Below, in pieces: positions 29,082 to 59,588 of a DNA stretch of 64,000 bases. Positions within the stretch are counted from its first letter, which is position 1. Each line of letters begins with the position of its first letter. This stretch comes from Rhodoligotrophos appendicifer (GTDB lineage: Bacteria; Pseudomonadota; Alphaproteobacteria; Rhizobiales; Im1): NCBI RefSeq assembly GCF_007474605.1, contig NZ_VHKL01000015.1:1-64000 (forward strand), in the 5' to 3' direction. The position numbers and the translations under genes were made by a program. The notes under the pieces were generated by a model. The model did no database searches, had not been told where the DNA came from, and saw only the letters and a program-made list of their open reading frames with translations.

Positions 29082-29444
29082 TTACGAGCATCCAACGGCC
29101 ACTGCGATCATCATCAGGTCTTCGGTCAGTGAGATGAAGCCCAGCGGGCCGTTGCTGTTGCCGCCAACGCAGGCGCATTTAAGCTCACGCCGGTCAATGT
29201 AGACGGCCTTGAACATTGAGACGGCACCGATCGTGGCGATCACGAGTGTGACAGGAATGGCGAGCCACAGAAGTACCCCGGCGATCATCAGGACGCCTGC
29301 CAGTGCTTCTCCAAAGGGATAGAGATAGGAATATCGCATCCCATCACTGGCAAGCAGATCATATCCGAGAAACATATTGGAGAAGCTCTCGACGTCGCAA
29401 GCTTCAAGATCGCCAAGATGCACATCGATATAGCGATAAGCCAT
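29082..29444 (-). CDS. MauE/DoxX-like redox-associated membrane protein, N-terminus probably altered
   Basis: The 120-residue product shows the MauE/DoxX-like core: FLGYDLLASDGMRYSYLYPF, EALAGVLMIAGVLLWLA, and a conserved FKAVYIDRRELKCACVGG with a Cys pair. Such proteins act in disulfide or electron-transfer steps in the membrane. The usual first transmembrane helix is missing: residues 1-20 are hydrophilic (YIDVHLGDLEAC) and no ribosome site precedes the ATG. The gene start coincides with the junction to a methyltransferase relic, so the 5' end may have been replaced or deleted. It likely forms an operon with the DUF305 gene. Confidence 0.62.
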   Translation of the reverse strand: MAYRYIDVHLGDLEACDVESFSNMFLGYDLLASDGMRYSYLYPFGEALAGVLMIAGVLLWLAIPVTLVIATIGAVSMFKAVYIDRRELKCACVGGNSNGPLGFISLTEDLMMIAVAVGCS

Positions 29445-29507
29445 TCAGTCGCTCAGATTGTCAGTAGATTTCCAAATGCTGCCCAAGCAAAGGCCAGGAC
29501 GCCCGAC

Positions 29508-29882
29508 ATCCCAGCCGCCGACTACGTAGACGATCCGCGAGCGCAGGTGATCGCCGCTGCGGTGGCGCGGCTGAACGAGCTGTGCGAGAATTGGCTGAAC
29601 CCTGCCGACCTGGCAATTCGGGAGCCCGAACCGGTCTCCGGCTGCCCCAATCGTGTCCTGCCGAAGGATGAGGGGGCTGCGAAGGAGCTAAAGAAGCGAA
29701 CGCTCCCTAACCTCTACAACGCTCTCCCGCAATGGCTGGTGAACGCGTACGCCGCGCTCGATGCGGCAGTCGCTGATGCCTACAGCTGGGGAGAGGACTG
29801 TCGCACCGGCCGACTGGATGACGACGAAAGCCTCTCCCGCCTGTTCGCGCTCAACCAGGCCCGTTCCGCTGAAAGATGTTGA
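29508..29882 (+). pseudogene. C-terminal relic of a DNA methyltransferase (type IIG/MmeI-like)
   Basis: The open frame (from 29418) encodes only the tail of a much larger class I DNA methyltransferase. Recognisable pieces are VARLNELCENWLNPADL, KELKKRTLPNLYNALPQWL and YAALDAAVADAYSW, ending with a DDDESLSRLFALN block. In full-length proteins these segments are the last about 120 residues, after the catalytic and target-recognition domains. No catalytic motif (FxGxG or NPPY) is present, so it is non-functional as an enzyme. It marks the left border of the defence-like island. Confidence 0.6.
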
Positions 29883-30123
29883 TGTCGGCTGTTGCCCAGA
29901 TACCAGTTTAGTTTGATCCGAAGCAGACATTCGGCGAGCCTATAAGGTAGAGGATCTTAAGTCAGAAGCCCCCGATTTGGACTGGAGTTGGCCCATTCCA
30001 TCCTCATGGAAATAAACGACGTTCATTCAATATTTGGCAGAACGTAGGATTTCCAGTTCAATTCTAGCACGTACGGCTGGGATCGTCGTTGACAACGCCT
30101 CAGTTAGGCTGTGAATTTTCTAC

Positions 30124-32421
30124 ATGGGGATCATCACCAACATCCGGTCGATGCAGGGCATGGGCATCCATGCTGACCGGAATGCTCGATCTCCTTCACT
30201 TAACCTGCGCCAGTACAATCTCATCTACGGTTTCAACGGATCGGGTAAAAGCACCCTGTCGCGCCTGTTCTCGAGTTTTCAGGCGGGAGAGCGGCACGCG
30301 AAGTTGCCCGAAGGGTGTTCGTTCGAGGTGACACTGGATGACGGTGCCACGCATGGGTGCCCGACAAATCCGCGCGGCCTCGAACAGCGCCTGCTGGTCT
30401 TCAACAACGATTACATCGAGCAGAATTTGCAGTGGACCGCCGGCCTCGCGAATCCGGTTTTCTACATCGGTGCCGATCAAGCGGATGCGGCCACTGAGCT
30501 AATCAAAATCGAAGCTGCGATCGCGAAGGCCGAAACTGCCAAGGCTCTGGCGCTCGCGGCAGAGAAGGTTGCCGACAAATCCTTCGCGACCTTCAAGCGG
30601 GAGCGCGCCAAGTCAGTCGCGTCGCGTCTTCATCTGGGCAGCCGCAAATATGAGGCACCCGCTCTCGTCAAGGATTTCGAAGCATGGAAAGACGAAGTTG
30701 GCGCTGCGTTGACCGATGACGAACTTAGAGCGGCCGAAGATTCTCGGCGGCTGGATGAACCGATGCCGCGAGTCGGGCCGATCGCCTTCGATGCATCCAG
30801 TATCGGTACCGCTTACCGATTTATCGTCGACATCTGCAACCAGTCACTCACCACGGTCGCACTCGATGAGGTGCAGCGCTATCCCGACATGCTGCTGTGG
30901 CTAAAGCACGGCCAGGAATTCCATCATGCGAACGAGGTCGCCGACTGCCTTTATTGCGGCAACGCGATTTCGGACAAACGACGTGCCCAACTAACCGCCG
31001 CGCTCGACGACCAGGTCGACCAGTTCGTTGCGCGCCTCGCCAAGACTGCCGAACGCCTCGACGCTGTGATCGCGACACTCTCCGATATCGAAGAACGTGC
31101 GCCATTGAGGGATACGTTTGTCGCTGAGCTGCGGGAAAGCTCCGGCGAGCTAAGGAAGTTAGTCTCACAAGAAGTAGGAAACACGATCGCGCATCTTTCC
31201 GGCCTGCAGCAGGTTCTCGGTGCCAAGCGCGCGCGCCCCGCATCACCCGCGGATACTGGCAAACTTTCAGCCGAGGCCGACGTTGTCGCAACCGCGAACG
31301 AGTTGGCCAAGGCAATTGCGTCGATCAACGAGATGATAACGGCCCACAATGGCGTCGTGGACAATTTCGCCAAGCATAAGGACGACGCCGAGACGGAGAT
31401 CCGTCGCCATTTCCTGCTCGAGTGCCGGAGCGATTTTGCCCAGCTGGCACAGGACTTGGCTGACGCGACCGCCAATGTCGTCAAGGAAAGCGATGCGCTG
31501 GATTCGTTGAAGTTGACCGCGACCGACCTGCGGCAGAAGATCAGGGTTCATGGCCCGGCCGCGACGGCGATTAATAAGCTCGTTGCAGCCTACCTCGGAC
31601 ATGCTGAGCTGACAATTCACCCGATGGAGGACGGCTACAAGCTTCATCGCCACGGAACGCCTATTACCGGAGTGCCGAGTGAGGGAGAGAAGACCGCGAT
31701 TGCGATCTCGTACTTCCTGTCCTCGATCGAGGCGGACAATCGCAAGCTAAAGGACGTTATTGTCGTCATCGACGACCCCGTATCGAGTCTCGATACCAAG
31801 GCGCTCAACTTCGCGTGCTCGCTTGTGCGCGGCAGGCTCGACAAGGCCGGTCAGGTGATCGTGCTCACTCACAATCTCCAGTGCATGAACGAGTTTCGGA
31901 AGGCGTGGAAAGTCAAGGCACGTCCTCCCGAAGGCAAGGATCCGACAGCGACTTTCTTGTTCATCGACGTCGCCATTCCGGAAGGACAAATCAAACGATC
32001 ATCGACGATCGTCGAGATGTCGAAGTTGCTGCGGGAATATGATTCCGAATATCATTTCCTCTTCAGCCATGTCCTTCGCTTCATCGAGAAGACCGACGCT
32101 TATGATGATCACGGTTATATAGTTCCCAACCTCATGCGTCGTGTGCTCGATGTCTTTCTCGCCTTCAAATGCCCCGGGAGCTCCGGTTTGGCAGGTCAAA
32201 TGGCCAAACTCTACGCCGACTATCCAGAGCTCGATCGCGACAAGCTGATGGCGCTTGAACGGCTCGCACAAGTCGAATCGCATTCCGACAATTTGGACGA
32301 CCTGCTGTCCTTTTCGTCAATGACACTGGAGGAAACTCGAGCCGCCGCAGGCGCGCTCGTCGAGATGATGGATCATGTTGATGCCAAGCATCTGGCGAGT
32401 TTGAAGCAGCTCTGTCGGTGA
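30124..32421 (+). CDS. RloC/PrrC-like AAA ATPase with single CxxC hook
   Basis: The 765-residue protein is an SMC/Rad50-like ABC ATPase of the AAA_13 group. Walker A GFNGSGKST is at 36-44, long helical arms flank a CLYC motif at 275-278 (a possible Zn hook), the ABC signature SEGEKTA starts at 519, and Walker B VIVVIDDPVSSLD with Asp550/Asp551 follows. The C-terminus (about 665-765) has an Arg672-Arg673 pair, Asp676 and His720 in VESHSDN, roughly where RloC and PrrC have their Arg-Glu-His anticodon-nuclease triad. The Glu is Asp here, so nuclease activity is uncertain. It is first in the operon with the nuclease-like and helicase genes, its stop in a 4-base overlap. Role in phage defence is inferred. 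Confidence 0.72.
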   Translation: MGIITNIRSMQGMGIHADRNARSPSLNLRQYNLIYGFNGSGKSTLSRLFSSFQAGERHAKLPEGCSFEVTLDDGATHGCPTNPRGLEQRLLVFNNDYIEQNLQWTAGLANPVFYIGADQADAATELIKIEAAIAKAETAKALALAAEKVADKSFATFKRERAKSVASRLHLGSRKYEAPALVKDFEAWKDEVGAALTDDELRAAEDSRRLDEPMPRVGPIAFDASSIGTAYRFIVDICNQSLTTVALDEVQRYPDMLLWLKHGQEFHHANEVADCLYCGNAISDKRRAQLTAALDDQVDQFVARLAKTAERLDAVIATLSDIEERAPLRDTFVAELRESSGELRKLVSQEVGNTIAHLSGLQQVLGAKRARPASPADTGKLSAEADVVATANELAKAIASINEMITAHNGVVDNFAKHKDDAETEIRRHFLLECRSDFAQLAQDLADATANVVKESDALDSLKLTATDLRQKIRVHGPAATAINKLVAAYLGHAELTIHPMEDGYKLHRHGTPITGVPSEGEKTAIAISYFLSSIEADNRKLKDVIVVIDDPVSSLDTKALNFACSLVRGRLDKAGQVIVLTHNLQCMNEFRKAWKVKARPPEGKDPTATFLFIDVAIPEGQIKRSSTIVEMSKLLREYDSEYHFLFSHVLRFIEKTDAYDDHGYIVPNLMRRVLDVFLAFKCPGSSGLAGQMAKLYADYPELDRDKLMALERLAQVESHSDNLDDLLSFSSMTLEETRAAAGALVEMMDHVDAKHLASLKQLCR

Positions 32422-32492
32422 ACAACAACGTCCTTATCCCTGCAACTGTCGCCAAGCGCAAACAGCAGCCCGCCGACAAGGTCGACGAATGA
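32418..32492 (+). CDS. Micro-ORF of 24 codons linked by start/stop overlaps
   Basis: A GTG at 32418 overlaps the ATPase stop (GTGA). The frame encodes 24 residues starting MNNNVLIPATVAKRKQQPA and ends at a TGA that overlaps the next ATG. The peptide is basic and has no known domain. The coupled overlaps on both sides suggest it is translated, but a relic of a longer gene broken by a frameshift cannot be excluded. Confidence 0.3.
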   Translation: MNNNVLIPATVAKRKQQPADKVDE

Positions 32493-32620
32493 CCCTAAGC
32501 GTTCTGCCCACCGCGACCCCGCCACAATGTCTCGGCGCGGACTGGACCGTAGCCGACGACGATGCGCTCGCCGAGGTCTGTGCGCAAATCATGATCGGTC
32601 GCGCGCTCCATGCAGCATGA
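32489..32620 (+). CDS. Small ORF of 43 codons between ATPase and nuclease-like gene
   Basis: ATG 32489 overlaps the previous stop, and its own stop overlaps the ATG of the nuclease-like gene at 32617. The 43-residue product is acidic in the middle (WTVADDDALAEVCAQI). It may be a genuine small subunit, or the N-terminal segment of the next protein separated by a frameshift, since some 40 residues before the next start would fit such a domain. No family recognised. Confidence 0.35.
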   Translation: MTLSVLPTATPPQCLGADWTVADDDALAEVCAQIMIGRALHAA

Positions 32621-33288
32621 TTCTCGACGGCTCCCACCCCGTGGGCACACCGCCGATCATCAGCGCCGCGCTCAAGGAGAAATTGCGGATCGAACTTCAT
32701 CCCACGAGCAGTCCCAAGATCTACCATCGCGACGGCCTGCTTTTCGAGATTATCAGCTGGGTCGCGGCACGCCTGACCGCGACGCCGAGTGATGCCATTT
32801 CCGATCCCCATCTGAAGGCGACCAACCAGGGCACCGATTGCGTCAAGGTGACCGTTGATCTGGTGACGCGAACCCTCACCCGGGCCACCGTCTACGAATA
32901 TAAATGCACCACCAACTGGCGGCAGCTATTCTCCCAAGACGTGCTAACGGCGTTCCGAGAATATGTCTCGGGCGAACGCGACAACCAGCTCGCCCAAGCG
33001 GCCATCACCCTCCTGATCGAACTCGGCTTCACTCGTGACGAGCGCAATGCCGCCTATGATGAGTTGGTTCGCGCCCGGCCTCTTGCTTTCCAGGCGTCGC
33101 TGACCGTGGCGCCGAGTGGTTTTGGCGCCGCCGAGCGGCCTGCGCTTTTCGCAGGCTATGACGCGATCGCAGGCGACATCACCACACGCGGCGGCAATAC
33201 GATGCCGCTAGACGATGTCCGCGGCTGGTTCACGGTCTTCGCCGCCCTCGTATGGATGAAGATCGAGGCGTTCGATGTTCGACGCTGA
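32617..33288 (+). CDS. HamA/DUF1837-like putative PD-(D/E)XK nuclease subunit
   Basis: ATG 32617 overlaps the preceding stop (ATGA); the frame extends to 32527 but that part is Arg-rich and unlikely to be translated. The 223-residue product has a helix with HRDGLLFEIISWVAARL, then GTDCVKVTVDL (Asp74) and VYEYKCTTNW (Glu94, Lys96). That spacing fits a PD-(D/E)XK nuclease core. The following segment VLTAFREYVSGERDNQLAQ is helical. Its position directly before a Ski2-like helicase resembles HamA-HamB of the Hachiman defence system. The family call is inference from motif and context; another nuclease family is possible. Confidence 0.5.
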   Translation: MILDGSHPVGTPPIISAALKEKLRIELHPTSSPKIYHRDGLLFEIISWVAARLTATPSDAISDPHLKATNQGTDCVKVTVDLVTRTLTRATVYEYKCTTNWRQLFSQDVLTAFREYVSGERDNQLAQAAITLLIELGFTRDERNAAYDELVRARPLAFQASLTVAPSGFGAAERPALFAGYDAIAGDITTRGGNTMPLDDVRGWFTVFAALVWMKIEAFDVRR

Positions 33289-33724
33289 AACCGCTGCGCT
33301 GATCCGCTCGGCACCGCCGCTGCGCGGCGTCGATCCGGAAACCCTGCCGCAAGAACTCACCGCCATTTATGCCGAGCTCGCGGGCCTCCGCCTACGCGCC
33401 GCACAACTCGCTGATGCGCCCGAGTATCTTGCCCAGATTGAGCGCCTCGCCCGCATCGCAGCGGTTTGCGAGGCACAGGTCGACGACACGATCGATGGCG
33501 AGGCCCGTCGCGCCGCCGCTTTCGTCGCGGGCACCGCTTACCAAATCCTCGGCCGGGTCATGCCGATTGCGCCGGATCGTGCGGCTTTCTTGAGCGCCGG
33601 CGCCATCCATCCGCGCATCGCAGCACCTTTGCTGTTCCTAATCGCCGAGCAGAGCCCCGACGCCCGAGAAGCGGCGCGCGGACTTGGTGTCGGACGTCTC
33701 GGGGATATCCATCGGACGCCCTAG
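33275..33724 (+). CDS. N-terminal segment of the island helicase (frame broken at about 33700)
   Basis: This 149-residue frame overlaps the nuclease-like gene by 14 bases and begins MFDAETAALIRSAPPLRG. It is helical and ends abruptly with GLGDIHRTP-like sequence after a probable frameshift. From about 33700 another frame continues smoothly with ALVESIRDLAQERFTLILERA to about 33935, and the helicase frame takes over with LAIADVAPAAAGARL. Read together these form the N-terminal helical region expected before a HamB-type helicase core. As it stands the product would be a truncated protein without catalytic motifs. Confidence 0.5.
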   Translation: MFDAETAALIRSAPPLRGVDPETLPQELTAIYAELAGLRLRAAQLADAPEYLAQIERLARIAAVCEAQVDDTIDGEARRAAAFVAGTAYQILGRVMPIAPDRAAFLSAGAIHPRIAAPLLFLIAEQSPDAREAARGLGVGRLGDIHRTP

Positions 33725-33877
33725 TCGAAAGTATCCGGGATCTGGCGCAGGAAAGGTTCACCTTGATTCTCGAACGCGCCGAGCGCCTCGCCCGACTCCA
33801 GCCGTCTCCCGACGATGATCTGACCGAACAGGCGACCCAGGGGCTTTACGGTCTCTGCTGGGCAGGGCTCACTCATC

Positions 33878-35938
33878 TTGTGGCGCGTCTGCTCGATCAG
33901 CCGCCGCCGGAGCTCGCCTATCCATTGCGGGAGACACCAATTGGCGATCGCCGACGTTGCCCCAGCCGCGGCCGGGGCCAGGTTGGTCTCGGCCTATGCC
34001 GGACCGCGCCACCTCGCGCGCTTGCTGCGCCATGTCGCCGACGGCCTCGAAGGAGCTGGCATCGCGAACCTGCCGGCACCGGCTGGAGCTGCGGAACCCG
34101 TCTGGCGGCGCTGGCTCCGTCACCGCGCCGATACCAAGCCCACCCTCTGGCCCAACCACCGGAAGGCAGTGGCGACCGGCCTACTCGACGCCGGAACGTC
34201 GGCGGTGCTGGAACTCCCGACAGGAGCGGGTAAGACCACTCTGTCCGAACTCAAGATCGCCGCGACGCTTAGCGCTGGCCGCAAGGTGATCTTCCTCGTG
34301 CCGACGCTCGCGCTGGTCGACCAGCTTCGACGATCTTCCGATAATTTCCCCAAGAGCCTCGCCAATTACGAGATCTCGGCCGATGGCGACCTTGTTGCCT
34401 TTATCTCTGGCCCCGAATTCGGTGCAATCGAGGTGATGACGCCCGAGCGCCTGCTCGCAGTGCTCAGCTTCGCCGACGCTGACGTCGCCGAGCTCGGCCT
34501 CATCGTCTTTGATGAATGCCACCTGTTGAGCCCGGCGGGCGGCGGCGCGCGCAGCGTCGATGCCATGTTGTGTCTGCTCCATGCGCTTCGTCGCGCTCCC
34601 CAGGCCGACTATCTGCTCCTCTCTGCGATGTTGCAGAACGCTCCGGATGTCGCTGAGTGGCTCGAACAGCTTTCCGGACGGCGCTGCATCAGCTTCGTCG
34701 ATCCGTGGAAGCCAAGCCGTCAGGCGCGCGGCGTCGTGATCTACGCCAAGAATCAGCTCGACTGGGCCCACACGACTGTCCGCGCCGCAAACTTTGCGAA
34801 GCGGACCGACCAACCGGCCCACAAGCCGCCGCTTAATCTGACGCCGTTTGCCTTGTTCGGGCTGAATAATGCCTGGGCACGAAACGCGCCTCAGGATCGG
34901 CGGATCATTCGGCTCTCCGATGGCACTGTGTCGCTTAATTATGGCGTCACTGGCGCAACGCCAAATTCCAACGAGGTTGGCGCTTCCTTTGCCGCGTGCG
35001 CGGCGCGGGCCGGTCTTAAGACGATCATTTTCGTCAACCAGGCCGATCACGCACCGACGACCGCGAAAAAGATCAAGGCCCGCGTCCCGGCTGTCGGCGC
35101 ACTGAACGAACTCGAGAATGACCTGTGGCAAGACATCATCGCCGAATTGGGCGGAGCGCAGCATTCGCTGCTCGATCCGACCGCACCCGCCTTGCCCCAT
35201 AATGGCGACATGATTTCGATCGAGCGACGCATGGCCGAGTCGCTGTTCCGCAGGCGTGACGGCGCCAGCGTGATCGTCGCTACGCCGACACTTGCCCAGG
35301 GGATGAACCTCCCGGCTGAGGTCGCGATTCTTGCTGGCACGATGCGCCACGACGAGGACGGGCGCGAGCCGCTCAAGGATCATGAGATCCTCAACGCCGC
35401 CGGCCGGGCAGGTCGCGCCGGCCATCTGGCCAACGGTACCGTCCTGCTCATTCCGGAGCCGCCGGTCTCCTTCCGGATGGACTGGACACCGACTGGTGAG
35501 GCATTCGCCATGCTGGAGAAGGTCCTGCCTGGCAGCGACCAGTGCGTCATGATTGACGATCCGTTAACGACACTGCTCGACCGGATCCAGCTCGGCGACG
35601 TCAGCAGTCCGGATGTTCGCTATTTCCTCAGCCGGCTGCGGGCCGGCGAGGGCGAGGAAGCGGATCCTGATCGACCAATCCAAATGATGGATCGATCCTT
35701 CGCCGCCTTCCAGGCTCGCAAGACGGGCGCCGAGGCCGCGTTCGACGTGAAGCTCGTGTCACTGAAAAGTGCGTTTGCCGCCGACGCCCAAGCTACCGAA
35801 GTCTCGACCCTCAAGATCGCCGTCTTCAGCGGCATGCAACTTGAGCCATTAACCGCACTCGCTTCCAAGATCGTAGCCGAGATCGACATGCTGCCGACCA
35901 CGATCATTGAATGGTGCAATGGCTGGTCGATTTCCTGA
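33878..35938 (+). CDS. Ski2-like DECH-box helicase (HamB-like), frame-disrupted
   Basis: The frame gives up to 686 residues; native sequence starts near TTG 33941 and the part before looks out of frame. Superfamily 2 motifs are complete: LPTGAGKTT (I), FLVPTLALVDQ (Ia), FDECHLLSP (II, DECH), LLSAMLQ (III), VATPTLAQGMNLPAEVAI (V) and NAAGRAGRAG (VI). Such helicases translocate on DNA or RNA, and HamB acts with the HamA nuclease. The frame stops at 35938 while the neighbouring frame continues with a plausible C-terminal domain. With three frame breaks over 33275-36498 the gene is probably a pseudogene, or the indels are sequence errors. Confidence 0.65.
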   Translation: MWRVCSISRRRSSPIHCGRHQLAIADVAPAAAGARLVSAYAGPRHLARLLRHVADGLEGAGIANLPAPAGAAEPVWRRWLRHRADTKPTLWPNHRKAVATGLLDAGTSAVLELPTGAGKTTLSELKIAATLSAGRKVIFLVPTLALVDQLRRSSDNFPKSLANYEISADGDLVAFISGPEFGAIEVMTPERLLAVLSFADADVAELGLIVFDECHLLSPAGGGARSVDAMLCLLHALRRAPQADYLLLSAMLQNAPDVAEWLEQLSGRRCISFVDPWKPSRQARGVVIYAKNQLDWAHTTVRAANFAKRTDQPAHKPPLNLTPFALFGLNNAWARNAPQDRRIIRLSDGTVSLNYGVTGATPNSNEVGASFAACAARAGLKTIIFVNQADHAPTTAKKIKARVPAVGALNELENDLWQDIIAELGGAQHSLLDPTAPALPHNGDMISIERRMAESLFRRRDGASVIVATPTLAQGMNLPAEVAILAGTMRHDEDGREPLKDHEILNAAGRAGRAGHLANGTVLLIPEPPVSFRMDWTPTGEAFAMLEKVLPGSDQCVMIDDPLTTLLDRIQLGDVSSPDVRYFLSRLRAGEGEEADPDRPIQMMDRSFAAFQARKTGAEAAFDVKLVSLKSAFAADAQATEVSTLKIAVFSGMQLEPLTALASKIVAEIDMLPTTIIEWCNGWSIS

Positions 35939-36498
35939 TCGCGGATCGCGCTAGCTATGCACTGTTGTTCGGCGGGGATGTCGAGACCGTCAAGGCTGTC
36001 ACCCGCGGCAAGAAGACCGGAGGCGACAGCACTGTTGCCGAAATCGCGTTGCTTAAGCCCGCACTGCGTGCCTGGTTGACCGGTGCGCCGTTTGCGTCAA
36101 TCGAGGCGGCGCTCGGTGTCGCCCCGTCCAAGTTCAAAACCTGCAAGCGCTCCCGCGATTTCGTGCTCAAGCTGATGAATCGTCGCTTCTACATGATCGC
36201 TGGCGCACTGGCCGCCCTGGTTCAGCATGCGCTTCAGGAGGCTGGGAAGGTGACTGCTAATCCAGCAGCACTAGAGGTTATGGCGGTGGCGATACGCAAG
36301 GGCTTGGACTCCCCCGACAAGATAGCCTTCGCCCATCGGTCCACGGCGATCCGTTCTCCCGTCATCCTGCACCGCTCCTATGCAGACCGCTTTCCTAATC
36401 GGGAGGATCAGATGGGTACGGACTTTCAGACAATCCTGCGATCGATCGACGCGCATTTGGCGTTTGCAGATTTAGGGCTGAGCACTTCTCGCGTCTGA
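35911..36498 (+). CDS. C-terminal segment of the island helicase or separate small protein
   Basis: This 195-residue frame starts at ATG 35911, 28 bases inside the helicase frame, with MVQWLVDFLIADRASYALLFGG. The helicase frame reads the same bases as a short tail ending in WSIS. The smooth join of the two frames suggests one original protein. It continues as a helical domain with KSRDFVLKLMNRRFY-like basic segments. No enzyme motif is visible. A short inverted repeat follows the stop. Confidence 0.45.
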   Translation: MVQWLVDFLIADRASYALLFGGDVETVKAVTRGKKTGGDSTVAEIALLKPALRAWLTGAPFASIEAALGVAPSKFKTCKRSRDFVLKLMNRRFYMIAGALAALVQHALQEAGKVTANPAALEVMAVAIRKGLDSPDKIAFAHRSTAIRSPVILHRSYADRFPNREDQMGTDFQTILRSIDAHLAFADLGLSTSRV

Positions 36499-36525
36499 CC
36501 TTCCCAGCCGTTCTAGGAGGAAGGT
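36498..36525 (+). terminator. Inverted repeat after the helicase operon, possible terminator
   Basis: ACCTTCC (36498-36504) and GGAAGGT (36519-36525) can pair across a 14-base loop immediately after the last stop codon. There is no T-run, so a factor-independent terminator is uncertain. Confidence 0.25.
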
Positions 36526-36689
36526 TCGACGATAACCACCTTCATAGTTACCTGAGCAGACGACCGCTTTCAGCGCCGGGGCGCGAGAGCCTGAATGGAG
36601 ACAATTATTGCTTTGATGCCAATGCTGGAGCCGCACGCAGATCAACTGGAGCGCTGCGGTAGAGATGGTGAGGAGCGGCAAAGCACACA

Positions 36690-39509: not shown

Positions 39510-40184
39510 ATGAATGAAAATGATCGGATACGAGATTGGCTTGAGGGCCAGGTGGCAAAGCGGGGCCGCGGAGCAAAGGCGGCTCTCGCAGCACATTTGG
39601 GAGTGCGGCCAGATGCCATAACGAGAATGCTCAACCTTGGCGGAAAGGAAACGCGCCTCATAAAGGCGCATGAACTCTCGAGAATTGCCGAGTTTTTTGG
39701 AACACCCTTTCCGGAGCAGTCTCAACGATCGCTGGCGTCTAACGCCACACTACCTCCCAGCTATCGCCCGTTCCCCGATCGGGCCCTACCGGTCTTTGGG
39801 CAGGCAGAAGGCGGCATTGACGGCCGCTTCGTGCTGAACGGTCAGCGGGTCGCGAGCGTTTTTTGTCCACCGGTCCTTGCCGATGTGGAAGGCGCCTATG
39901 CCGTGTATGTGCACGGTGACTCTATGGCGCCAAAATTCGAAGCGGGAGAGACCGTTTGGCTTCACCCTTACGTGCCCGTGAAGAAGGGCGACTACGTCGT
40001 TGTCCAGCTGACGATCGGAGGAGACGAGATGCTGCATGGATATGTCAAACAGTTCATCTCGAGAAATTCAAAACACTTGGTGCTACGGCAACTCAATCCG
40101 CCGGAGGGTGAGGAGGAAATTTTCCAATTACCCACAAGCCAAGTTTTTTCTATTCACAAGATCGTCTTTTCGCAGCTGCTTTAA
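39510..40184 (+). CDS. cI/LexA-like phage repressor (HTH plus S24 peptidase)
   Basis: The 224-residue protein has an N-terminal helix-turn-helix (about 20-60, GAKAALAAHLGVRPDAITRML). A C-terminal S24 peptidase domain follows, with the catalytic Ser138 in HGDSMAPKFEAGE and a candidate Lys180 in GYVKQF. Such repressors hold the prophage silent and self-cleave when RecA filaments form. The gene is flanked upstream by three palindromes and followed about 390 bases later by a fourth. It reads toward the integrase side of the prophage. The start ATG 39510 is the first in frame and sits just after the last operator. Confidence 0.82.
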   Translation: MNENDRIRDWLEGQVAKRGRGAKAALAAHLGVRPDAITRMLNLGGKETRLIKAHELSRIAEFFGTPFPEQSQRSLASNATLPPSYRPFPDRALPVFGQAEGGIDGRFVLNGQRVASVFCPPVLADVEGAYAVYVHGDSMAPKFEAGETVWLHPYVPVKKGDYVVVQLTIGGDEMLHGYVKQFISRNSKHLVLRQLNPPEGEEEIFQLPTSQVFSIHKIVFSQLL

Positions 40185-40439
40185 ATCAACCCCTGCATAG
40201 TCTTCAAGGGTTCTCCACCGTGGGCGAATTGTGAGGTTTCTATTCCTCACAGGTAGCCGCGGGCACTCGCCACACCGAACTTTGCGGCACAAATCCCCAT
40301 ATGTGTGAATACCTAGGGCCTGGATCTCCCTCAGTCGGCTGATCGATATCTCGCGCTCTCGTCCGCAATCATCACACGCGACATAAACGCTGAGGATCTC
40401 CGATAACAGCCGGCGCGCATCGGGTGGAAGCCTATGCAT
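40128..40439 (-). CDS. Small zinc-ribbon-like protein
   Basis: The 103-residue product has two Cys pairs, CDDC (about 22-25) and CRKVRCGEC (about 51-59), suitable for one zinc site. A helical block RLLSEILSVYV precedes them. AGGA lies 6 bases before the ATG. Small proteins of this type are common in alphaproteobacterial phages and may bind DNA. Its 3' end overlaps the repressor gene by 57 bases on the opposite strand, which is odd but open throughout. No specific family name is claimed. Confidence 0.5.
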   Translation of the reverse strand: MHRLPPDARRLLSEILSVYVACDDCGREREISISRLREIQALGIHTYGDLCRKVRCGECPRLPVRNRNLTIRPRWRTLEDYAGVDLKQLRKDDLVNRKNLACG

Positions 40440-40542
40440 GACACATCCTATGTTCTCTTATTGTTCTCATTGATTCCCGATTTTCCCGGCGGAGTCCAGA
40501 ATTGATTCTGCTCGAAGAAATCGGGCATCTGCAAAATAAATT

Positions 40543-40588
40543 GCGATTACCACAGATGGCGCCGTTGACCTTTAATCGCGATTATCGC
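40543..40588. promoter_or_regulatory. Second operator region with GCGATTATCGC palindrome
   Basis: GCGATTATCGC (40578-40588) matches the operator at 39438. It overlaps the perfect palindrome TAATCGCGATTA (40573-40584). A half-site TTGCGATTACC begins at 40541. The sites lie 38 bases before the start of the rightward early genes, so the repressor probably controls both its own promoter and this one. Confidence 0.55.
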
Positions 40589-40625
40589 AATTTACCTTCG
40601 GTGAAACTTCGTGGGTCCTGGACGA

Positions 40626-40898
40626 ATGAACCTCAGCGTCCGCCTGTCCGCTCTTGATAAACTGCGTCACTTCGGTGCGCCGGCAAGCCCCGGCATATGG
40701 GCCGAGGTCAAAACCTATGACCGAGCCCATCCCCGCCCCAGCAAGCGCTGCGCGCTGAGTGTCGGCAAGTTCACCCTCAAGCAGACGTTCGGCCTCGGTC
40801 TGATCGACGACGGTGAAGCCGCTGCCCTGCCGATCTTCCTCCATCTTGGGCCCATCGAGCTTTGGGCTGGCATCGTTCGTCCGGAGGCGCGGCATTGA
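40626..40898 (+). CDS. Prophage early-region hypothetical protein
   Basis: ATG 40626 opens a 90-residue frame starting MNLSVRLSALDKLRHFGAP. It has no recognised domain. It is first in a tightly coupled rightward series (hypothetical, hypothetical, ssb, small membrane protein, HTH) just downstream of an operator. Its stop overlaps the next start (TTGA). A C-terminal segment LPIFLHLGPIELW is hydrophobic but short. Confidence 0.55.
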   Translation: MNLSVRLSALDKLRHFGAPASPGIWAEVKTYDRAHPRPSKRCALSVGKFTLKQTFGLGLIDDGEAAALPIFLHLGPIELWAGIVRPEARH

Positions 40899-41080
40899 TC
40901 AGCAATTTGATCGATATCGCCGTGCAGGTCCGCCATACGACGGAGCGGGCCGCCCTGGTGCACGAAGGCGCCCGCGAAGCCTGGATCCCGCTGCCCAAGG
41001 CAGAACTCATCTCCAATGGCGACGGCACACACACCCTCACCTGCCCGGAATGGCTGGCGAAAGACAAGGGATTGATGTGA
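40895..41080 (+). CDS. Small prophage protein upstream of ssb
   Basis: TTG 40895 is chosen because GGAGG (40882-40886) lies 8 bases before and it forms a 4-base overlap with the previous stop. The 61-residue product starts LISNLIDIAVQVRHTT-like and contains AWIPLPKAELI and LTCPEWLAKDKG, a pattern recurring in small alphaproteobacterial phage proteins before ssb. Function unknown. Its TGA overlaps the ssb ATG by one base. Confidence 0.55.
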   Translation: MISNLIDIAVQVRHTTERAALVHEGAREAWIPLPKAELISNGDGTHTLTCPEWLAKDKGLM

Positions 41081-41559
41081 TGGCAGGCTCGCTCAATAAG
41101 GTCCAGCTCATCGGCCACCTCGGCAAGGCCCCCGAGATCCGGCACACCCGTGATGGACGCGGCGTCGCCTCGTTCAGCCTCGCCAAGTCCGAGAGCTGGC
41201 GCGACAAGACCACCGACGGGCGCAAGGATCGAACGGAGTGGCACAATATCGTCGTCTTTACCGACGGCTTGGTGAAGATCGCCGAGCAATATCTGAAGAA
41301 GGGTGGGCCGGTTTATGTCGAGGGCCAGCTGACGACGCGAACATGGCAGGATCAGAGCGGCAATGATCGCTGGTCGACGGAGGTGGTGCTGCAGGGTTTC
41401 AACGCCACCCTGACTATGCTCGACGGAAGGCGCGACGATGGCGGCCGATACGACCCCGAGCAGCGCGGCCTGGATCCCGATCGCACCGCCGGCCGCAGCA
41501 CCACCACAGCGCGGCCAAGCTCGATCCATGAAGAACTCGACAATGAGGTGCCGTTCTGA
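41080..41559 (+). CDS. ssb: Single-stranded DNA-binding protein
   Basis: ATG 41080 shares a base with the previous TGA. The 159-residue protein has the OB-fold SSB pattern: SLNKVQLIGHLGKAPEIRHT, GVASFSLAKSESW and TEWHNIVVF, then GGPVYVEGQLTTRTWQD. A disordered linker leads to an acidic tip LDNEVPF, the protein-interaction tail of SSBs. It protects single-stranded DNA during phage replication or recombination. It is a second, phage-borne copy in type. The next small gene starts on its stop. Confidence 0.88.
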   Translation: MAGSLNKVQLIGHLGKAPEIRHTRDGRGVASFSLAKSESWRDKTTDGRKDRTEWHNIVVFTDGLVKIAEQYLKKGGPVYVEGQLTTRTWQDQSGNDRWSTEVVLQGFNATLTMLDGRRDDGGRYDPEQRGLDPDRTAGRSTTTARPSSIHEELDNEVPF

Positions 41560-41720
41560 TGCGCCACTGGTCACCCGCCGAATTCTTCATCGTCGCGCTC
41601 TGCGTCACCATCGCCCTGCTCCTGGCAGTCATCGGCGACTTAGCCGAGCAGGCCCGGCTTATCCGCAGCTGGTCAGCCATGCGGAGACCATCAACGGCAG
41701 GCTGCCGGCCATTCGCGTGA
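41559..41720 (+). CDS. Small single-helix membrane protein
   Basis: ATG 41559 overlaps the ssb stop (TGATG). The 53-residue peptide has one hydrophobic helix (FFIVALCVTIALLLAVIG, about 9-26) and a basic tail. Its stop overlaps another ATG at 41720. Translational coupling is the main support. Function unknown. Confidence 0.45.
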   Translation: MRHWSPAEFFIVALCVTIALLLAVIGDLAEQARLIRSWSAMRRPSTAGCRPFA

Positions 41721-41776
41721 TGCCGTCCAAGGAAAAGGTGATCGGCCGTGGTAAGTCGACATATGGAGGGCAGAGA

Positions 41777-42031
41777 ATGACCCGCGCGAAATCCACCATC
41801 GCAGCACGCCTGACCATCCGGCGTGGGCTTTCAGAAGCGGAGGCGGCTCTGTATGTCGGGCTTGGCTCGACGAAGTTTCGCTTTCTCATCGCTGAAGGTC
41901 TGATGCCCGAACCCCGGATCATCGGCGGCCGAAGGCTTTGGGATGTCGATGACCTCGATGCTGCCTTCCGCTCGTTTCCACTGGAGGGTTCCGATAAGCT
42001 CGGCCAGCAGGAAGAAAATCCCTGGCATTAA
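41777..42031 (+). CDS. HTH (AlpA/excisionase-like) protein
   Basis: ATG 41777 is preceded by GGAGGG at 41765-41770; the frame also has an ATG at 41720 in the upstream stop. The 84-residue product has a MerR-like winged helix: LSEAEAALYVGLGSTKFRFL, then PEPRIIGGRRLWDVDDLDAA. Proteins like this act as excisionases or prophage regulators. It is 9 bases upstream of the integrase gene, consistent with an excisionase partner. Confidence 0.7.
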   Translation: MTRAKSTIAARLTIRRGLSEAEAALYVGLGSTKFRFLIAEGLMPEPRIIGGRRLWDVDDLDAAFRSFPLEGSDKLGQQEENPWH

Positions 42032-42040
42032 AGGTGGGCA

Positions 42041-43111
42041 ATGACGCGTCTAAAGTTGCGATATATCAAGGCCTATACCGACAGAATCGGGAAAACCCGT
42101 CGTTACTTCAACAAAACCGGGTTCGCCAAAACCCCACTTCCTGGCCTCCCTGGATCGATTGCCTTCATGGAAGTTTACCAGAGGTGTTTAGCCGAAGTTG
42201 AGGCTACGAAACGCAGCACCGCATCTGTCTCAGAAGCAGTGAAGCCGGGCTCGTTCGCCGATTTAGTGCAGCGTTATTATGGATCTTCATCGTTCAAGAC
42301 GTTGAGACCCATTACCAAATCGACTTACCGCAACGTCATCAACCATCTTGTCAAGGAAAACGGCGATAAGCCCGTCGATCGGCTAGATCGAAAGGGCATT
42401 ATGAAGTTGGTCGACCAGAAATCGGAGACCCCTGGCACCGCAAACAAAGTGCTCCGGACGCTCCGAATGCTAATGCGCTTTGCGATCAAACAGGAAATGC
42501 GAACGGACGATCCGACCGCTGGGCTGGCGAAGCTGCGAGTCAGCAAAGAGGGGTTTCTTGCGTGGGATGAAGATCACATTCGCCTATTTGAGGGCCATCA
42601 TCCGATCGGATCGAGAGCTCGGCTTGCCTTTGCCCTGCTGATCTTCACCGCTCAGCGGCGAAGCGACGTGATCCGGCTTGGCCCGCAACATATTCGAAAC
42701 GGCAGGCTGAGTTTGCGGCAGCAAAAGACTGGCACCTTCCTGGATATCCCCGTTCACCCCGAGCTCGCGATGATCATCGATCGCTCAGCGGTGAGCGATA
42801 TGACCTTTCTTAGGACGGAGCAGGGAAAATCATTTGCGCCAGCAGGTTTTGGAAATTGGTTCGGCGATTGCTGCCGGCAAGCTGGGCTGCCCTTAGGATT
42901 CAATGCACATGGCTTGAGGAAGGCGGCAGCCCGCCGCCTGGCTGAAGCCGGAGCGACGACGCAGGAGATCATGGCGATCACGGGCCATCAGTCGATCTCA
43001 GAAGTCGAGAGGTACACACGGGCGGCAAATCAGCGGCATTTGGCATCGAAAGGGATGTCGCGCCTAACAGAACTTTCTAACGATCCCAAAGTTTCCGTTC
43101 TAACCCGTTGA
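42041..43111 (+). CDS. Tyrosine-type integrase
   Basis: The 356-residue protein has a basic N-terminus and a core-binding SAM-like region (about 70-170). A catalytic domain has the Arg in FTAQRRSDVIRL, HGLRKAAARRL (HxxR), GHQSISEVERYT with the nucleophilic Tyr. It integrates and excises the prophage together with the HTH protein upstream. It is the outermost prophage gene, so an attachment site should lie just downstream. None of the catalytic residues is missing. Confidence 0.88.
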   Translation: MTRLKLRYIKAYTDRIGKTRRYFNKTGFAKTPLPGLPGSIAFMEVYQRCLAEVEATKRSTASVSEAVKPGSFADLVQRYYGSSSFKTLRPITKSTYRNVINHLVKENGDKPVDRLDRKGIMKLVDQKSETPGTANKVLRTLRMLMRFAIKQEMRTDDPTAGLAKLRVSKEGFLAWDEDHIRLFEGHHPIGSRARLAFALLIFTAQRRSDVIRLGPQHIRNGRLSLRQQKTGTFLDIPVHPELAMIIDRSAVSDMTFLRTEQGKSFAPAGFGNWFGDCCRQAGLPLGFNAHGLRKAAARRLAEAGATTQEIMAITGHQSISEVERYTRAANQRHLASKGMSRLTELSNDPKVSVLTR

Positions 43112-43563
43112 AAAACAATGGGGGTGGTGGTGGTTTCAGTCACTGCCGAACCAGTCTCCGAATTCCCTGCTCTGAGGGAATTCTGCAGGGAATTACTTCG
43201 TCAGAGGCGAAGCCGCGATCGCCGCAATCCGAATGTCCTAATACAACTTATGGTTGATTTTGGCCCGGAACTTATCCGATAGCTCCTGGTCGTTCTCGTG
43301 CCTAGACACTTCGCGCGCGGACCAATGGTGAACCTGGGTTCGCGAGCGGAAAGACTCTGACGAGCCACTTCGGCCATTGCTCTTCGATCTGCATCTGCTT
43401 AACGCAAGATTTTGTGAATCGTGCCCTTGATGTTTTCCCCACCATTCTGGTAGATCTTTTATTAGTTGGTCATATCGGCAGTCGACATATATTTCTATAG
43501 ACCAAAGATCGGGTCGACCCTAGTGACGATGTACTTACTCATTTCTTGATTTGGAGTGTTGTA
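43112..43563. other. Intergenic region after the integrase, likely attachment-site end
   Basis: No gene is supported. A perfect inverted repeat GAATTCCCT/AGGGAATTC (43160-43168 and 43175-43183) with a six-base loop is followed by another GGGAATT, and could be a terminator or part of the attachment site. I could not find a matching direct repeat at the other end by eye. No tRNA gene is visible. The methylase cassette begins at 43564. Confidence 0.4.
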
Positions 43564-44964
43564 ATGAGCGGGGATAGTAAGTTGGGGAGCGCCGAGAGGG
43601 CCCTCTCTCCAGAACGATTGCGGCTGGAGACTACAGATGTTCCAGTTGAAGCCATCAAGACCTATGCACGCAATGCGCGGCGGCATACGAGAAAGCAAGT
43701 AGAGCAGATCGCCGAGTCTATTCGAGCGTTCGGCTTCGTATCGCCCCTGCTCATCGATGAGCAGGGCGTCATCATCGCCGGCCATGGCCGCCTGGCTGCC
43801 GCCAAGAAGCTGGGGTATTCGACGGTGCCCGTGGTGCGGGTCGAGCATCTCGATGATGCGCAGAAGCGGGCACTCAGGATTGCCGACAACAAGCTGTGTG
43901 AGCTCGCCGGCTGGGACGAAGAGCTCCTGAAGCTCGAGTTCTCGGACCTTTTGAAGATCGACTTGAGGCTCGATTTGAGCTTCGACCTGGAGATTACCGG
44001 CTTTGCCAGTGCCGAGATTGACCGTCTCGTCAACGATAGCGCCGAAGATCCAGATGACGACAAAAGCCCTGAGCTTCCAGCGCAGGCGCCAGTTACGCGT
44101 CCAGGCGACCTCTGGATCCTAGGAGGTCACCGCTTGATCTGCGGGGACGCCCTGGAAGAGGCAACCTATGAGAAGCTCATGGGCGAAGACACAGCTCAAA
44201 TGAGCATCTCGGATCCTCCTTACAACGTGCCTATAGGAGGCCATGTCTCCAGGACCGGCAGACATCGTGCTTTCGCCATGGCATCGGGTGAGATGAGCGA
44301 AGACGAGTTTACCCGATTCCTTCAGACTTACCTCACCCATGCCACGAAGCGTTGCGATCCCGCTGCCATCCATCTGACATTCATCGACTGGCGGCATATG
44401 CGCGAAATGCTGAATGCCAGCCGTCAAGCAGAGCTTGAGCTCAAGAATCTTGTCGTGTGGGACAAGGGCTCAGGTGCCATGGGTTCGTTCTACCGCAGTC
44501 AGCACGAGCTAGCGTTCATTTTCAAGTCGCCAGGCGCATCCCACAAGAACAATGTCCAGCTCGGCAAGTTCGGTCGCAATCGGACGAATGTATGGAGCTA
44601 TCCGGGAGCTCATAGCCTTCGCAAGGAGCTGGAGCTTCATCCAACGCCGAAGCCGGTTGCGCTGATCGCGGATGCGATCCGGGACGTGAGCGACAGGAAC
44701 AACCTTGTGCTGGATTGCTTCGCCGGCTCTGGCACCACAATCATTGCCGCCGAGAAGGTGGGTAGGCGGTGCCGGGCGATCGAGCTTGATCCCGGCTATG
44801 TCGATGTCGCAGTCAAACGATGGCTGCTACGGACAGGTGAGACGGCGATCCATGCCGATACCGGGCTTTCCTTTGCCGACAGGGCCAAACAAATGGCCGG
44901 CAAGCCTTCACGGATTCGGAGGCGGCCCACTCCCTTTGTCCTTAATGCCGCAAATGGGGAGTAA
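43564..44964 (+). CDS. ParB-domain DNA methyltransferase (beta-class)
   Basis: ATG 43564 gives 466 residues. An N-terminal ParB/sulfiredoxin-like domain (about 10-110) contains TYARNARRHTRKQVEQIAES and GHGRLAAAKKLGYSTVPVV. The methyltransferase domain has DPPY at 217 before FAGSGTT at about 386, an order seen in beta-class N6-adenine or N4-cytosine enzymes. Such proteins modify phage or mobile DNA. Here the gene is followed in a 1-base overlap by a DUF5681 gene and a terminase, a recurring three-gene set in alphaproteobacteria. The target sequence is not predictable. Confidence 0.85.
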   Translation: MSGDSKLGSAERALSPERLRLETTDVPVEAIKTYARNARRHTRKQVEQIAESIRAFGFVSPLLIDEQGVIIAGHGRLAAAKKLGYSTVPVVRVEHLDDAQKRALRIADNKLCELAGWDEELLKLEFSDLLKIDLRLDLSFDLEITGFASAEIDRLVNDSAEDPDDDKSPELPAQAPVTRPGDLWILGGHRLICGDALEEATYEKLMGEDTAQMSISDPPYNVPIGGHVSRTGRHRAFAMASGEMSEDEFTRFLQTYLTHATKRCDPAAIHLTFIDWRHMREMLNASRQAELELKNLVVWDKGSGAMGSFYRSQHELAFIFKSPGASHKNNVQLGKFGRNRTNVWSYPGAHSLRKELELHPTPKPVALIADAIRDVSDRNNLVLDCFAGSGTTIIAAEKVGRRCRAIELDPGYVDVAVKRWLLRTGETAIHADTGLSFADRAKQMAGKPSRIRRRPTPFVLNAANGE

Positions 44965-45383
44965 TGATCATGAACAAGAAAAAAGGATCCGACTCGCAAG
45001 TCGGCTATGGCAAGCCTCCCAAAGGATCACAGTTCAAGCCGGGTCAAAGCGGCAATCCCGGCGGGCGCAAAAAGGGCAGCCTTGACTACAAAACCATGGT
45101 CGAGCGAATAGCGGATACCGAGATTGAGATATCGGAAAATGGCACAAAACGCAGAGTGCCTGTCGTGGAGGCGCTCTTTCGTGTCCAAGTTAGAGAAGGA
45201 TTGAAGGGCAACATCCGAGCCTCCGACAGCCTGCTCAATCGGTTCGAGCGGCTAATGAGCGATGGAGATGTGCACTATGAGCTGCCGGAAGAGGATCGCG
45301 AGTTGCTCAATTGCGCCTTGAACCAACCAGCAGCTGTGCGCCCGGCACCCAACCGTAGAGCGAGGGGAGGAGGAGGACGATGA
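44964..45383 (+). CDS. DUF5681-domain protein
   Basis: The 139-residue product starts MIMNKKKGSDSQVGYGKPP and has the DUF5681 signature SQFKPGQSGNPGGRKKGS. A helical region follows with TKRRVPVVEALFRVQVREG and a basic Gly/Arg tail. It is encoded between a methylase and a large terminase, where it may act as a small-terminase-like DNA-binding partner; that role is inferred from position. The stop overlaps the terminase start by 4 bases. Confidence 0.8.
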   Translation: MIMNKKKGSDSQVGYGKPPKGSQFKPGQSGNPGGRKKGSLDYKTMVERIADTEIEISENGTKRRVPVVEALFRVQVREGLKGNIRASDSLLNRFERLMSDGDVHYELPEEDRELLNCALNQPAAVRPAPNRRARGGGGR

Positions 45384-46861
45384 CTGATGACGCTCGCCTC
45401 CTTCGGGCCCTTCTGCGGCAGAGACTATCCGTCTTTGTCCAGAAGTCCTTTGCAACCTTGGAGCCCGGAACCCCCTATCTGCACAATTGGCATATTGATC
45501 ATCTCTGTTGGAAGCTTGAACAAATCGAACGCGGCGCAATCAAGCGTCTCATCATCAATGTGCCTCCGCGATCCATGAAGTCGATCACGGTGTCCGTTGC
45601 CTTCTCCGCCTGGATCCTGGGCAAACATCCCTCGCACAAGATCATCTGCGCCTCCTATGCCGATGATCTCGCGCGCAAACTCTCCTCCGATACCCGTCTT
45701 CTCATCGAGAGCGACTGGTATAGAAGCCTCTTCCCTCAGTTGCGGCTGAACTCGCGGCGGCCAAGAACACACGAACTCACCACCACCCAAAGAGGATACC
45801 GGTTTGCTGCCGGCCTCAATGGTTCTATCCTGGGACGTGGTGCCGATCTCATCATCATCGATGATCCTATCAAAGCCACTGATGCGATCTCCAAAGCCGA
45901 ACGACGGCGTGTAAACGAGGCCTTCGACAACACGCTCTATACCCGGCTCAATGACAAGCAGAACGGCGCCATCGTCATTATCATGCAGCGCCTGCACGAG
46001 GAGGACCTCGCCGGTCACGTGATCTCCCGAGGCGAGTGGGACATCATCTCCCTCCCCGCCATAGCAACCGAGCCGCAGAACTTCCAGCTCAGCGATGACC
46101 CCGAGCATCTCTACGTCCGGCCAGCCGGCGAACTCCTGCATGAGGAGCGTGAACCCCGGGAGATCCTCGAGCAGCTTCAGCGCGCTCTGGGAAGCCTCAC
46201 CTTCTCCGCGCAGTATCAGCAGGCGCCGCTGCCGTTAGAGGGCAATGTGGTCAAGCGGGAGTGGATCCGGTTCTTTGAACAGGCTCCTACCCCCTTCGAT
46301 CTCGTCATTGCGAGTTGGGACACGGCGAGCACCATCAGCGAAGAAGCAGATTATTCTGTCGGCACTGTCTGGGGCGCCAAGGGACTCGACTTCTATCTTC
46401 TCGACCTCGTCCGAGGCAGATTCGAGGTGCCGGACCTGCGCCGCAAGGTCACCGAGCTTGCAGCAAAATGGGAGGTCGACCAGACCATCATTGAGGACAC
46501 AGAGCTTGGCCGGGCCATCAACCAGGACCTGCGTCGCTCCGGGCAATACAGCACCTATCTCCACAAGGTTCGGATCGACAAGGAGGCTCGCTTTCTCGCC
46601 CAGTCCGCACGCTTCGACAATGGACAGGTCTATGTTCGCGAGAACGCCGCCTGGGTTGCAGAATGGCTAAACGAGCTCCTCGCCTTCCCCAATGGCCGCC
46701 ACGATGATCAAGTCGATTCGACTAGCCAGGCTCTGCATTATCTGACCCGCAAGGTGACACCGCTGCACAGGAAGCGGCTAAATCAGCAATCGAGCCAGCG
46801 CCCCTCCCGGTCTAAGCCTCTAAGAAGTCGGAGGAGAACCCGTATCAAGCAAGCTGCGTGA
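45380..46861 (+). CDS. Phage large terminase
   Basis: The 493-residue protein has a terminase ATPase domain with a Walker-A-like NVPPRSMKS (about 58-66). Walker B LIIIDDP is near 156, followed by a TRLNDKQNGAIVIIMQR coupling region. A C-terminal RNase H-like nuclease begins with SWDTASTISEEADYSVG, whose Asp is the first metal ligand. It packages DNA in phages. No portal, capsid or tail gene follows, so here it is in a stand-alone cassette and may serve a mobile element or phage satellite. A basic tail ends the protein. Confidence 0.85.
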   Translation: MTDDARLLRALLRQRLSVFVQKSFATLEPGTPYLHNWHIDHLCWKLEQIERGAIKRLIINVPPRSMKSITVSVAFSAWILGKHPSHKIICASYADDLARKLSSDTRLLIESDWYRSLFPQLRLNSRRPRTHELTTTQRGYRFAAGLNGSILGRGADLIIIDDPIKATDAISKAERRRVNEAFDNTLYTRLNDKQNGAIVIIMQRLHEEDLAGHVISRGEWDIISLPAIATEPQNFQLSDDPEHLYVRPAGELLHEEREPREILEQLQRALGSLTFSAQYQQAPLPLEGNVVKREWIRFFEQAPTPFDLVIASWDTASTISEEADYSVGTVWGAKGLDFYLLDLVRGRFEVPDLRRKVTELAAKWEVDQTIIEDTELGRAINQDLRRSGQYSTYLHKVRIDKEARFLAQSARFDNGQVYVRENAAWVAEWLNELLAFPNGRHDDQVDSTSQALHYLTRKVTPLHRKRLNQQSSQRPSRSKPLRSRRRTRIKQAA

Positions 46862-58547: not shown

Positions 58548-59588
58548 TTATGCCGCCTCCTCCTGGCTCCAACGGAATGGGGTGTTGGTCTTCCACATGG
58601 CGTGCAGGATCACGGCCATCTTCCGGGCCACGGCGATCCTCGCCTTCTTGAACCCGGACGCCTTCGCCAGCTTCAGGCCCCAGGCTTTGAGCGTTGAGAA
58701 TCGTAGGTTGCGTGTCAGAAGCGTCGTGGCCGCTTCATAGAGGTGCTTCCTGGTCATCACGCTCCCTTGCTTGGAGATGCGCCCGTTTCGGCTTGTCTCG
58801 CCGGACTTGTATCGTCGGGGTGTCAGGCCGAGATAGGCGCCGGCGCTCGATGATCGACTGAAGCGTGATCCATCGTCGAAGGAGGAGGTGACGGACAGGG
58901 CGGTGATAACGCCAACGCCGGGCACGGTCATGAATAGGCGCGCGGTGGGGTTTGCCCTCGCGACTGCCATTAGACGACGGTCCAGAACCCTGATCTGATC
59001 GAGAATCGAGGCTCTGGCCTTCATCAATGTCTCGGCGATGAGACGCATCTCCGGGGACGCATCGAGTTCACCGGCGATGATCTCGTCGGCCCGTCCGGTA
59101 AACCCGCCGACGCGCTTGCCGAACAGAACGCCAAAGGTGCGCAGGAGACCACGGATCTCGTTCTCGATCTTGACCCGGATCCGCACCAGCATCTCGCGGG
59201 CGACCAGAAGGGAGCGAACCCGGTAGCTGTCGCGGCTTTTGATGCGCACCTGCTTAAACCAGCCGGTTCGCATGATCTGCGCCAGGCCAGCAGCGTCGTT
59301 GCGGTCCGTCTTCACCGGTCGCATCTTCAAAGCTGCGTTGGCATGACGGGCATCGATGCACAGAATTGGAAGACGGCGCGCGGCGAGTTCGTTCCAAAGC
59401 CACACGGCCAACGGTCCCGTCTCGAGCCCGACCCGGACGAGGCCTGGCGCTTTCTGATTCAAATATGCGGCGATCACTTCGGGGCAGGTTGCGACTTTCT
59501 TCTCGGCCAGGACCCGACCGGCATCGTCGATGACGCAGATCGCTGTCGTCTCCTGGGAAACGTCCAAAGCTGCATAGGAGGGCATCAT
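58548..59588 (-). CDS. IS110-family transposase (first copy)
   Basis: The 346-residue protein has an N-terminal RuvC-like DEDD domain (Asp in YAALDVSQE, Glu in VGLETGPLAVWL, KTDRNDAAGLAQIM). A C-terminal Transposase_20 domain has FMTVPGVGVITALSV and GAYLGLTPRRYKSGETSRNG. IS110 elements move by an unusual site-specific route and lack long terminal repeats. The frame is intact. It lies just outside the IS3 element that carries the second IS110. Confidence 0.88.
   Translation of the reverse strand: MMPSYAALDVSQETTAICVIDDAGRVLAEKKVATCPEVIAAYLNQKAPGLVRVGLETGPLAVWLWNELAARRLPILCIDARHANAALKMRPVKTDRNDAAGLAQIMRTGWFKQVRIKSRDSYRVRSLLVAREMLVRIRVKIENEIRGLLRTFGVLFGKRVGGFTGRADEIIAGELDASPEMRLIAETLMKARASILDQIRVLDRRLMAVARANPTARLFMTVPGVGVITALSVTSSFDDGSRFSRSSSAGAYLGLTPRRYKSGETSRNGRISKQGSVMTRKHLYEAATTLLTRNLRFSTLKAWGLKLAKASGFKKARIAVARKMAVILHAMWKTNTPFRWSQEEAA

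Follow-up and report, generated by a model that had tools for sequence, protein, structure and literature searches.

We found that positions 30124–36498 of the window (the whole 64,000-nucleotide stretch analysed, which is contig C15, positions 1–64000, of an alphaproteobacterial-looking assembly of 33 contigs) are best explained, with a probability of about 0.77, by two unrelated defence elements that adjoin: an intact, stand-alone RloC-like ATPase gene and a recently inactivated, divergent nuclease–helicase pair of the Hachiman type. Judging from predicted folds and helicase profiles, the pair (32489–36498) most likely represents a divergent Hachiman family, and this new HamA family, not a composite system, is the main result. 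A sequence-only reading of the same DNA had joined all of these genes into a single operon; the genes that it named are there, and the operon did not hold up, the adjacency of ATPase and pair being by chance. The features are as follows.

29418–29882, plus strand: relic of an MmeI-like restriction-methyltransferase of type IIG, reduced to its C-terminal part; a neighbour outside the pair
30124–32421, plus strand: AAA_13/RloC-like ATPase, 765 aa, intact (Pfam AAA_13, PADLOC PDC-S06, motifs)
32418–32492, plus strand: 24-codon ORF, rejected as a gene (no conservation 5΄ of the nuclease in relatives)
32489–32620, plus strand: 43-codon ORF, the detached N-terminus of the HamA-like nuclease (homology to intact relatives)
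32617–33288, plus strand: HamA-like PD-(D/E)XK nuclease, remaining 223 codons (18-sequence alignment, AF2 model); catalytic codons D74 at 32836–32838, E94 at 32896–32898 and K96 at 32902–32904
33275–33724, plus strand: N-terminal fragment of the HamB-like helicase, 149 codons (86–92% to residues 1–147 of the L004, L005 and L008 helicases)
33722–33940, plus strand: second helicase fragment, with a change of frame and a 26-nt deletion at its end (84–88% to L004, L005 and L008; DNA alignment)
33938–35938, plus strand: helicase core with Walker A PTGAGKT and DECH (DEAD, Helicase_C and HamB1 matches; 83–86% to L004, L005 and L008)
35911–36498, plus strand: C-terminal helicase fragment, in another frame (79–88% to the C-terminus in L004, L005 and L008)

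Breakage of the pair in the window

In Acetobacter cibinongensis (L004), Croceicoccus gelatinilyticus (L005), a cyanobacterial MAG (L006) and the Sinorhizobium fredii plasmid pSfreNXT3c (L008), intact relatives at 72–92% amino acid identity consist of one nuclease gene of 264–266 aa and one helicase gene of ~1075–1090 aa, and the two genes overlap in all four loci. In the window, the nuclease lies in two reading-frame pieces and the helicase in four. The 43-codon ORF is in frame with the nuclease N-terminus of these four relatives and 67–77% identical to it, and the 24-codon ORF is unconserved; the two micro-ORFs that had been listed are accordingly dismissed as separate genes, also as antitoxin or leader genes. 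Programmed frameshifting was ruled out because close relatives carry single uninterrupted frames. The DECH Ski2-like helicase that had been recognized at 33878–35938 is present (DEAD, E 8e-16; Helicase_C; PADLOC HamB1, E 4e-35, which answers the proposed search for HamB), with the first 21 codons of the ORF listed from 33878 being out of frame.

We aligned the DNA of the window with that of the S. fredii copy, and found 81% identity over 4010 bases, with five deletions and no insertion in the window. The losses are three single bases (near 32616, 33713 and 35919), a stretch of 26 nt (near 33937) and a total of 3 nt (near 34327–34335). The ratio of amino-acid-changing to silent substitutions was 27:106 in the window lineage and 30:151 in the S. 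fredii lineage (P = 0.46). Because the window lineage shows no excess of amino acid change, either the pair was inactivated recently or the single-base shifts stem from errors in sequencing. The latter possibility, in which the frameshifts arose in sequencing or assembly and the window copy is functional, would account for the three single-base shifts and for a substitution pattern that is not relaxed; however, the 26-nt and 3-nt deletions are present as well, and the former is hard to explain in this way. Moreover, long intact genes, including the adjacent ATPase gene, flank the pair on both sides, and other copies of the family are also broken, the helicase being split in L009 and L010 and truncated in L028. 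We therefore regard sequencing error as improbable, and the pair of the window as probably a dead, recently inactivated copy, which itself should do nothing.

Relationship to HamA and HamB

The residues D74 and E94-x-K96, which had been pointed out in the 223-aa ORF at 32617–33288, are present and correspond to D117 and E137-x-K139 of intact family members. Since they are invariant among 18 homologues (24–80% identical to the S. fredii protein), together with R81-D82, G115 and R145, they are not a matter of chance. Sequence models did not place this nuclease: ten intact members gave no Pfam or PADLOC match to HamA/DUF1837 (PF08878) at E ≤ 1, with only insignificant, unrelated Pfam scores; the window copy gave no significant match in NCBIfam, and a PDB sequence search with the nuclease gave none either. 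No PF08878 match was obtained in the genome of the window. In a comparison of the family profile with collected HamA sequences, GLDG...EDK was aligned with GADG...GESK at a probability of 11%, which is near noise, and the probability was 1–5% when more HamA sequences were included. Assignment to DUF1837 by sequence was thus rejected. Assignment to PDC-M23A, for which no family member had a PADLOC match, was rejected as well.

Structure models, built on 9–10 sequences, gave a different picture. For the nuclease of A. cibinongensis (mean pLDDT 76.7, pTM 0.81), the best match among 350,542 PDB chains was E. coli HamA (8vx9_A; E 0.013, probability 0.97), aligned over 258 columns, i.e. the full length (HamA has 259 residues), with TM 0.44/0.45, a similarity of moderate strength; the next PDB entry had a probability of ≤0.25. 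The catalytic E137 and K139 lie near the positions of E138 and K140 in HamA. The search for HamA that had been proposed hence failed for the DUF1837 and HamA models, and the nearest PDB fold was nevertheless HamA.

The helicase was more readily placed. The top three PDB matches of its model (pLDDT 71.1, pTM 0.71) were HamB chains (E 2e-24 to 5e-21, TM 0.64–0.66), ahead of PolQ and Hel308 (TM 0.41–0.46), and the model contains a helical N-terminal region of ~270 residues. HamB aligned over ~1210 columns, compared with ~850 for Hel308. At the profile level, HamB in the PDB was matched with E 3e-34, and PADLOC HamB1 with E 1e-35 in 8/8 sequences. In a phylogenetic tree, the 15 helicases of the family formed one clade (support 100/99), which included neither canonical HamB nor PDC-M23B nor Lhr. 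Canonical HamB did not form one group, branches were long, and the tree gave no firm deeper order, including the place of the family beside canonical HamB. The likeness of the pair to HamA and HamB that had been suggested from the sequence was thus right, each being the best PDB match of the respective model.

We considered whether the nuclease is an independently recruited PD-(D/E)XK protein instead of a HamA homologue, so that the pair would be a distinct two-gene system working like Hachiman. The missing HamA model match and the weak profile similarity speak for this idea, as does PDC-M23, which seems to combine the same architecture with another D..ExK protein. On the other hand, HamA ranked first among all PDB chains over its full length and well ahead of other restriction-type nucleases, the E and K of the active site occupy nearly the HamA positions, and the helicase resembles HamB from end to end. 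Independent recruitment hence appears unlikely, although it is the most plausible of the competing explanations, and the pair is probably homologous to HamAB in spite of failing the sequence-model test for HamA.

Comparison with known systems shows what the family shares with them and where it departs. Like Hachiman of E. coli ECOR31 (PDB 8VX9/8VXA/8VXY, PMC12278908), it consists of two adjacent genes with the nuclease first, a D..E-x-K site at nearly the same place and a Ski2 helicase. Unlike in Hachiman, its nuclease is missed by the DUF1837/HamA models and barely seen by profile comparison, it has its own invariant R81-D82 and GxD...ExK.T...R pattern, and its helicase forms a separate clade. 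The PADLOC candidate PDC-M23 likewise combines a 265-aa D..ExK protein with a 1090-aa helicase (L068), the helicases being similar at E 4e-29, whereas the nuclease of our family has no PDC-M23A match and the PDC-M23 helicase falls outside its clade. AbpAB (PMC12278908) also comprises a nuclease with a HamA-like domain and a Ski2-like helicase; in AbpA, however, the HamA site is inactive and a further nuclease domain is present at the N-terminus, whereas the single HamA-like domain of the present family keeps D..ExK. Among open-licence papers, we found none describing this nuclease–helicase family.

Two observations were made in passing. At the PDC-M23 locus (L068, 2427–3221 and 3221–6490), the 265-aa protein carries GADLVGF...FGEVKTS next to the PDC-M23B helicase, so that PDC-M23 may be a further nuclease–helicase pair of HamAB type. 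A second distant HamA group (L035, L042, L043) has weak PF08878 matches and a GEAKS motif; one member is paired in L060 with a HamB of 1168 aa, a length near that of E. coli ECOR31 HamB.

Possible action of the intact pair

HamB of the E. coli Hachiman system patrols DNA and holds HamA via its N-terminal helical domain; upon DNA damage, ATP-driven movement of HamB frees HamA, which degrades all DNA (PMC12278908). Intact homologues of the window pair have the parts for such a scheme, namely the D/E/K active site, the Walker A and DECH motifs of the helicase, and a predicted helical N-terminal region of ~270 residues. By analogy, we infer that the helicase would patrol DNA with the nuclease held inactive. 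It might be triggered by ends or single-stranded gaps arising from phage replication or DNA damage, and would then spend ATP to free the nuclease, which could degrade DNA and abort the infection. Each of these biochemical steps, and the defence function itself, is carried over from HamAB.

The nuclease is annotated as 'hypothetical protein' and the helicase merely as 'DEAD/DEAH box helicase'. Because current defence-annotation models miss the nuclease half, Hachiman-type systems are under-counted. In addition, a strongly diverged natural HamA offers a way to find the features that are indispensable for the action of a nuclease held by a helicase and released by damage.

Distribution, neighbours and the ATPase gene

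The adjacent pair is conserved in 20 loci from Alpha- and Gammaproteobacteria, a cyanobacterial MAG, plasmids and two viral contigs, with a few copies broken. In a sample of ~800 genomes, the nuclease family occurred in 3/385 genomes of the class and 4/399 of the phylum, including the genome of the window; for comparison, PF08878 HamA occurred in 10/289 and 6/150 genomes. The pair family is thus found in ~1% of the Pseudomonadota genomes sampled. Ten plasmid records, including six for conjugative plasmids, carried the nuclease family. It was also present on the two viral contigs, and had no match among phage genome records. Neighbours of the pair include a Zorya-like set (L027), ABC-3C/DUF2326 genes (L008) and, by sequence appearance, type I RM genes (L006). 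This distribution fits a mobile defence gene pair, often located in defence islands or on plasmids. In L027 (7544–13363), an intact HamAB-like pair immediately follows the Zorya-like set, which comprises OmpA-family, EH_Signature and SNF2 helicase genes. On the Shewanella plasmid pSA70-3 (L010, 2947–10500), the neighbour of a broken HamAB-like pair is an array of genes that includes predicted qnrVC1 and dfrA15.

We examined the gene preceding the pair. The ORF at 30124–32421 matches Pfam AAA_13 (E 1e-155), as had been anticipated, and PADLOC PDC-S06 over its full length (E 8e-142); a PDB sequence search gave no significant match. It contains Walker A (GSGKST at 39), the ABC signature (SEGEK at 519), Walker B (IDDPVSSLD at 549) and a linchpin His motif (VLTHNLQ at 580). 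The CxxC that had been noted, C275-LY-C278 in a putative coiled-coil zinc-hook insert, is kept in the homologues of L050 and L051. RloC of Geobacillus kaustophilus requires R692/E696/H737 (PMC2610378), and the degenerate Arg/Asp/His set of the ATPase, R672/D676/H720, lies at the place of this triad. With RloC (PMC2610378) the ATPase thus shares ABC-ATPase motifs split by a CxxC insert and the C-terminal Arg..His of the anticodon-nuclease triad, and differs in having Asp for Glu. The homologue with 55% identity also has Asp, and that with 32% identity retains Glu. On the strength of these motifs, the gene can reasonably be regarded as encoding a stand-alone RloC-like ABC-ATPase and a candidate anticodon nuclease. 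Homologues were found in 3/189 other genomes (E 1e-30), and these nearest relatives (L050, L051 and L052; 55%, 32% and 24% identity) are solitary amid housekeeping genes.

The operon that had been proposed, in which the RloC-like ATPase and the HamAB-like pair act jointly as a composite system with two effectors, draws on their common strand, on the 67 nt that separate the ATPase stop from the nuclease start, and on the roles that both parts are linked to in known systems, where damage or phages are sensed. The gene order, for which a search in other genomes had been suggested, recurs in none of the other loci: the ATPase was found 5΄ of the pair in 0/20 (tblastn, 1e-5), with upstream DNA of only 1.7–1.9 kb available in L004 and L025. 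Elsewhere this position is occupied by a gene for a SEC-C protein with a stop/start overlap (L004, L005), a DUF2326 ATPase gene 20 nt upstream together with an ABC-3C protein gene (L008), a Fic gene (L011 and L025, a near-copy of it), a phage integrase gene (L030) or an oppositely oriented DUF4365 gene (L012), and at some loci by no gene at all. The DNA similarity of 30000–36600 to the S. fredii plasmid begins at ~32521, i.e. with the pair and not with the ATPase gene. Furthermore, the homologues of the ATPase stand alone, and the ATPase gene of the window is intact next to a broken pair. A composite two-effector system is therefore largely refuted, and we consider it very improbable.

The variety of upstream genes also allows another view, in which divergent HamAB would serve as a chassis for interchangeable partners (SEC-C, DUF2326 ATPase, Fic and RloC-like ATPase genes) within a modular Hachiman superfamily. 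If so, the upstream genes would supply separate triggers or effectors; at present, we think that such modularity is doubtful. The SEC-C protein of 477 aa (L004, 490–1923; L005, 5442–6875), encoded by a gene with a stop codon that overlaps the HamA-like start codon, was rejected as an obligatory third component: it is absent from most pair loci, and distant relatives occur in defence-like neighbourhoods lacking the pair.

The methyltransferase relic that had been noted beside these genes is real and represents a type IIG C-terminus (PADLOC REase_MTase_IIG, E 1e-19, profile positions 923–1027 of 1136; MmeI_C, E 0.007). The pair of the window is situated between this relic (29418–29882) and prophage-type genes at 39510–46861, which encode a LexA/CI-like repressor, SSB, an integrase, a ParB-methyltransferase fusion and a terminase large subunit, and which lie a few kb from the broken pair. 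Further downstream, at 58548–61404 on the minus strand, are two IS110-type transposase genes, <3 kb apart.
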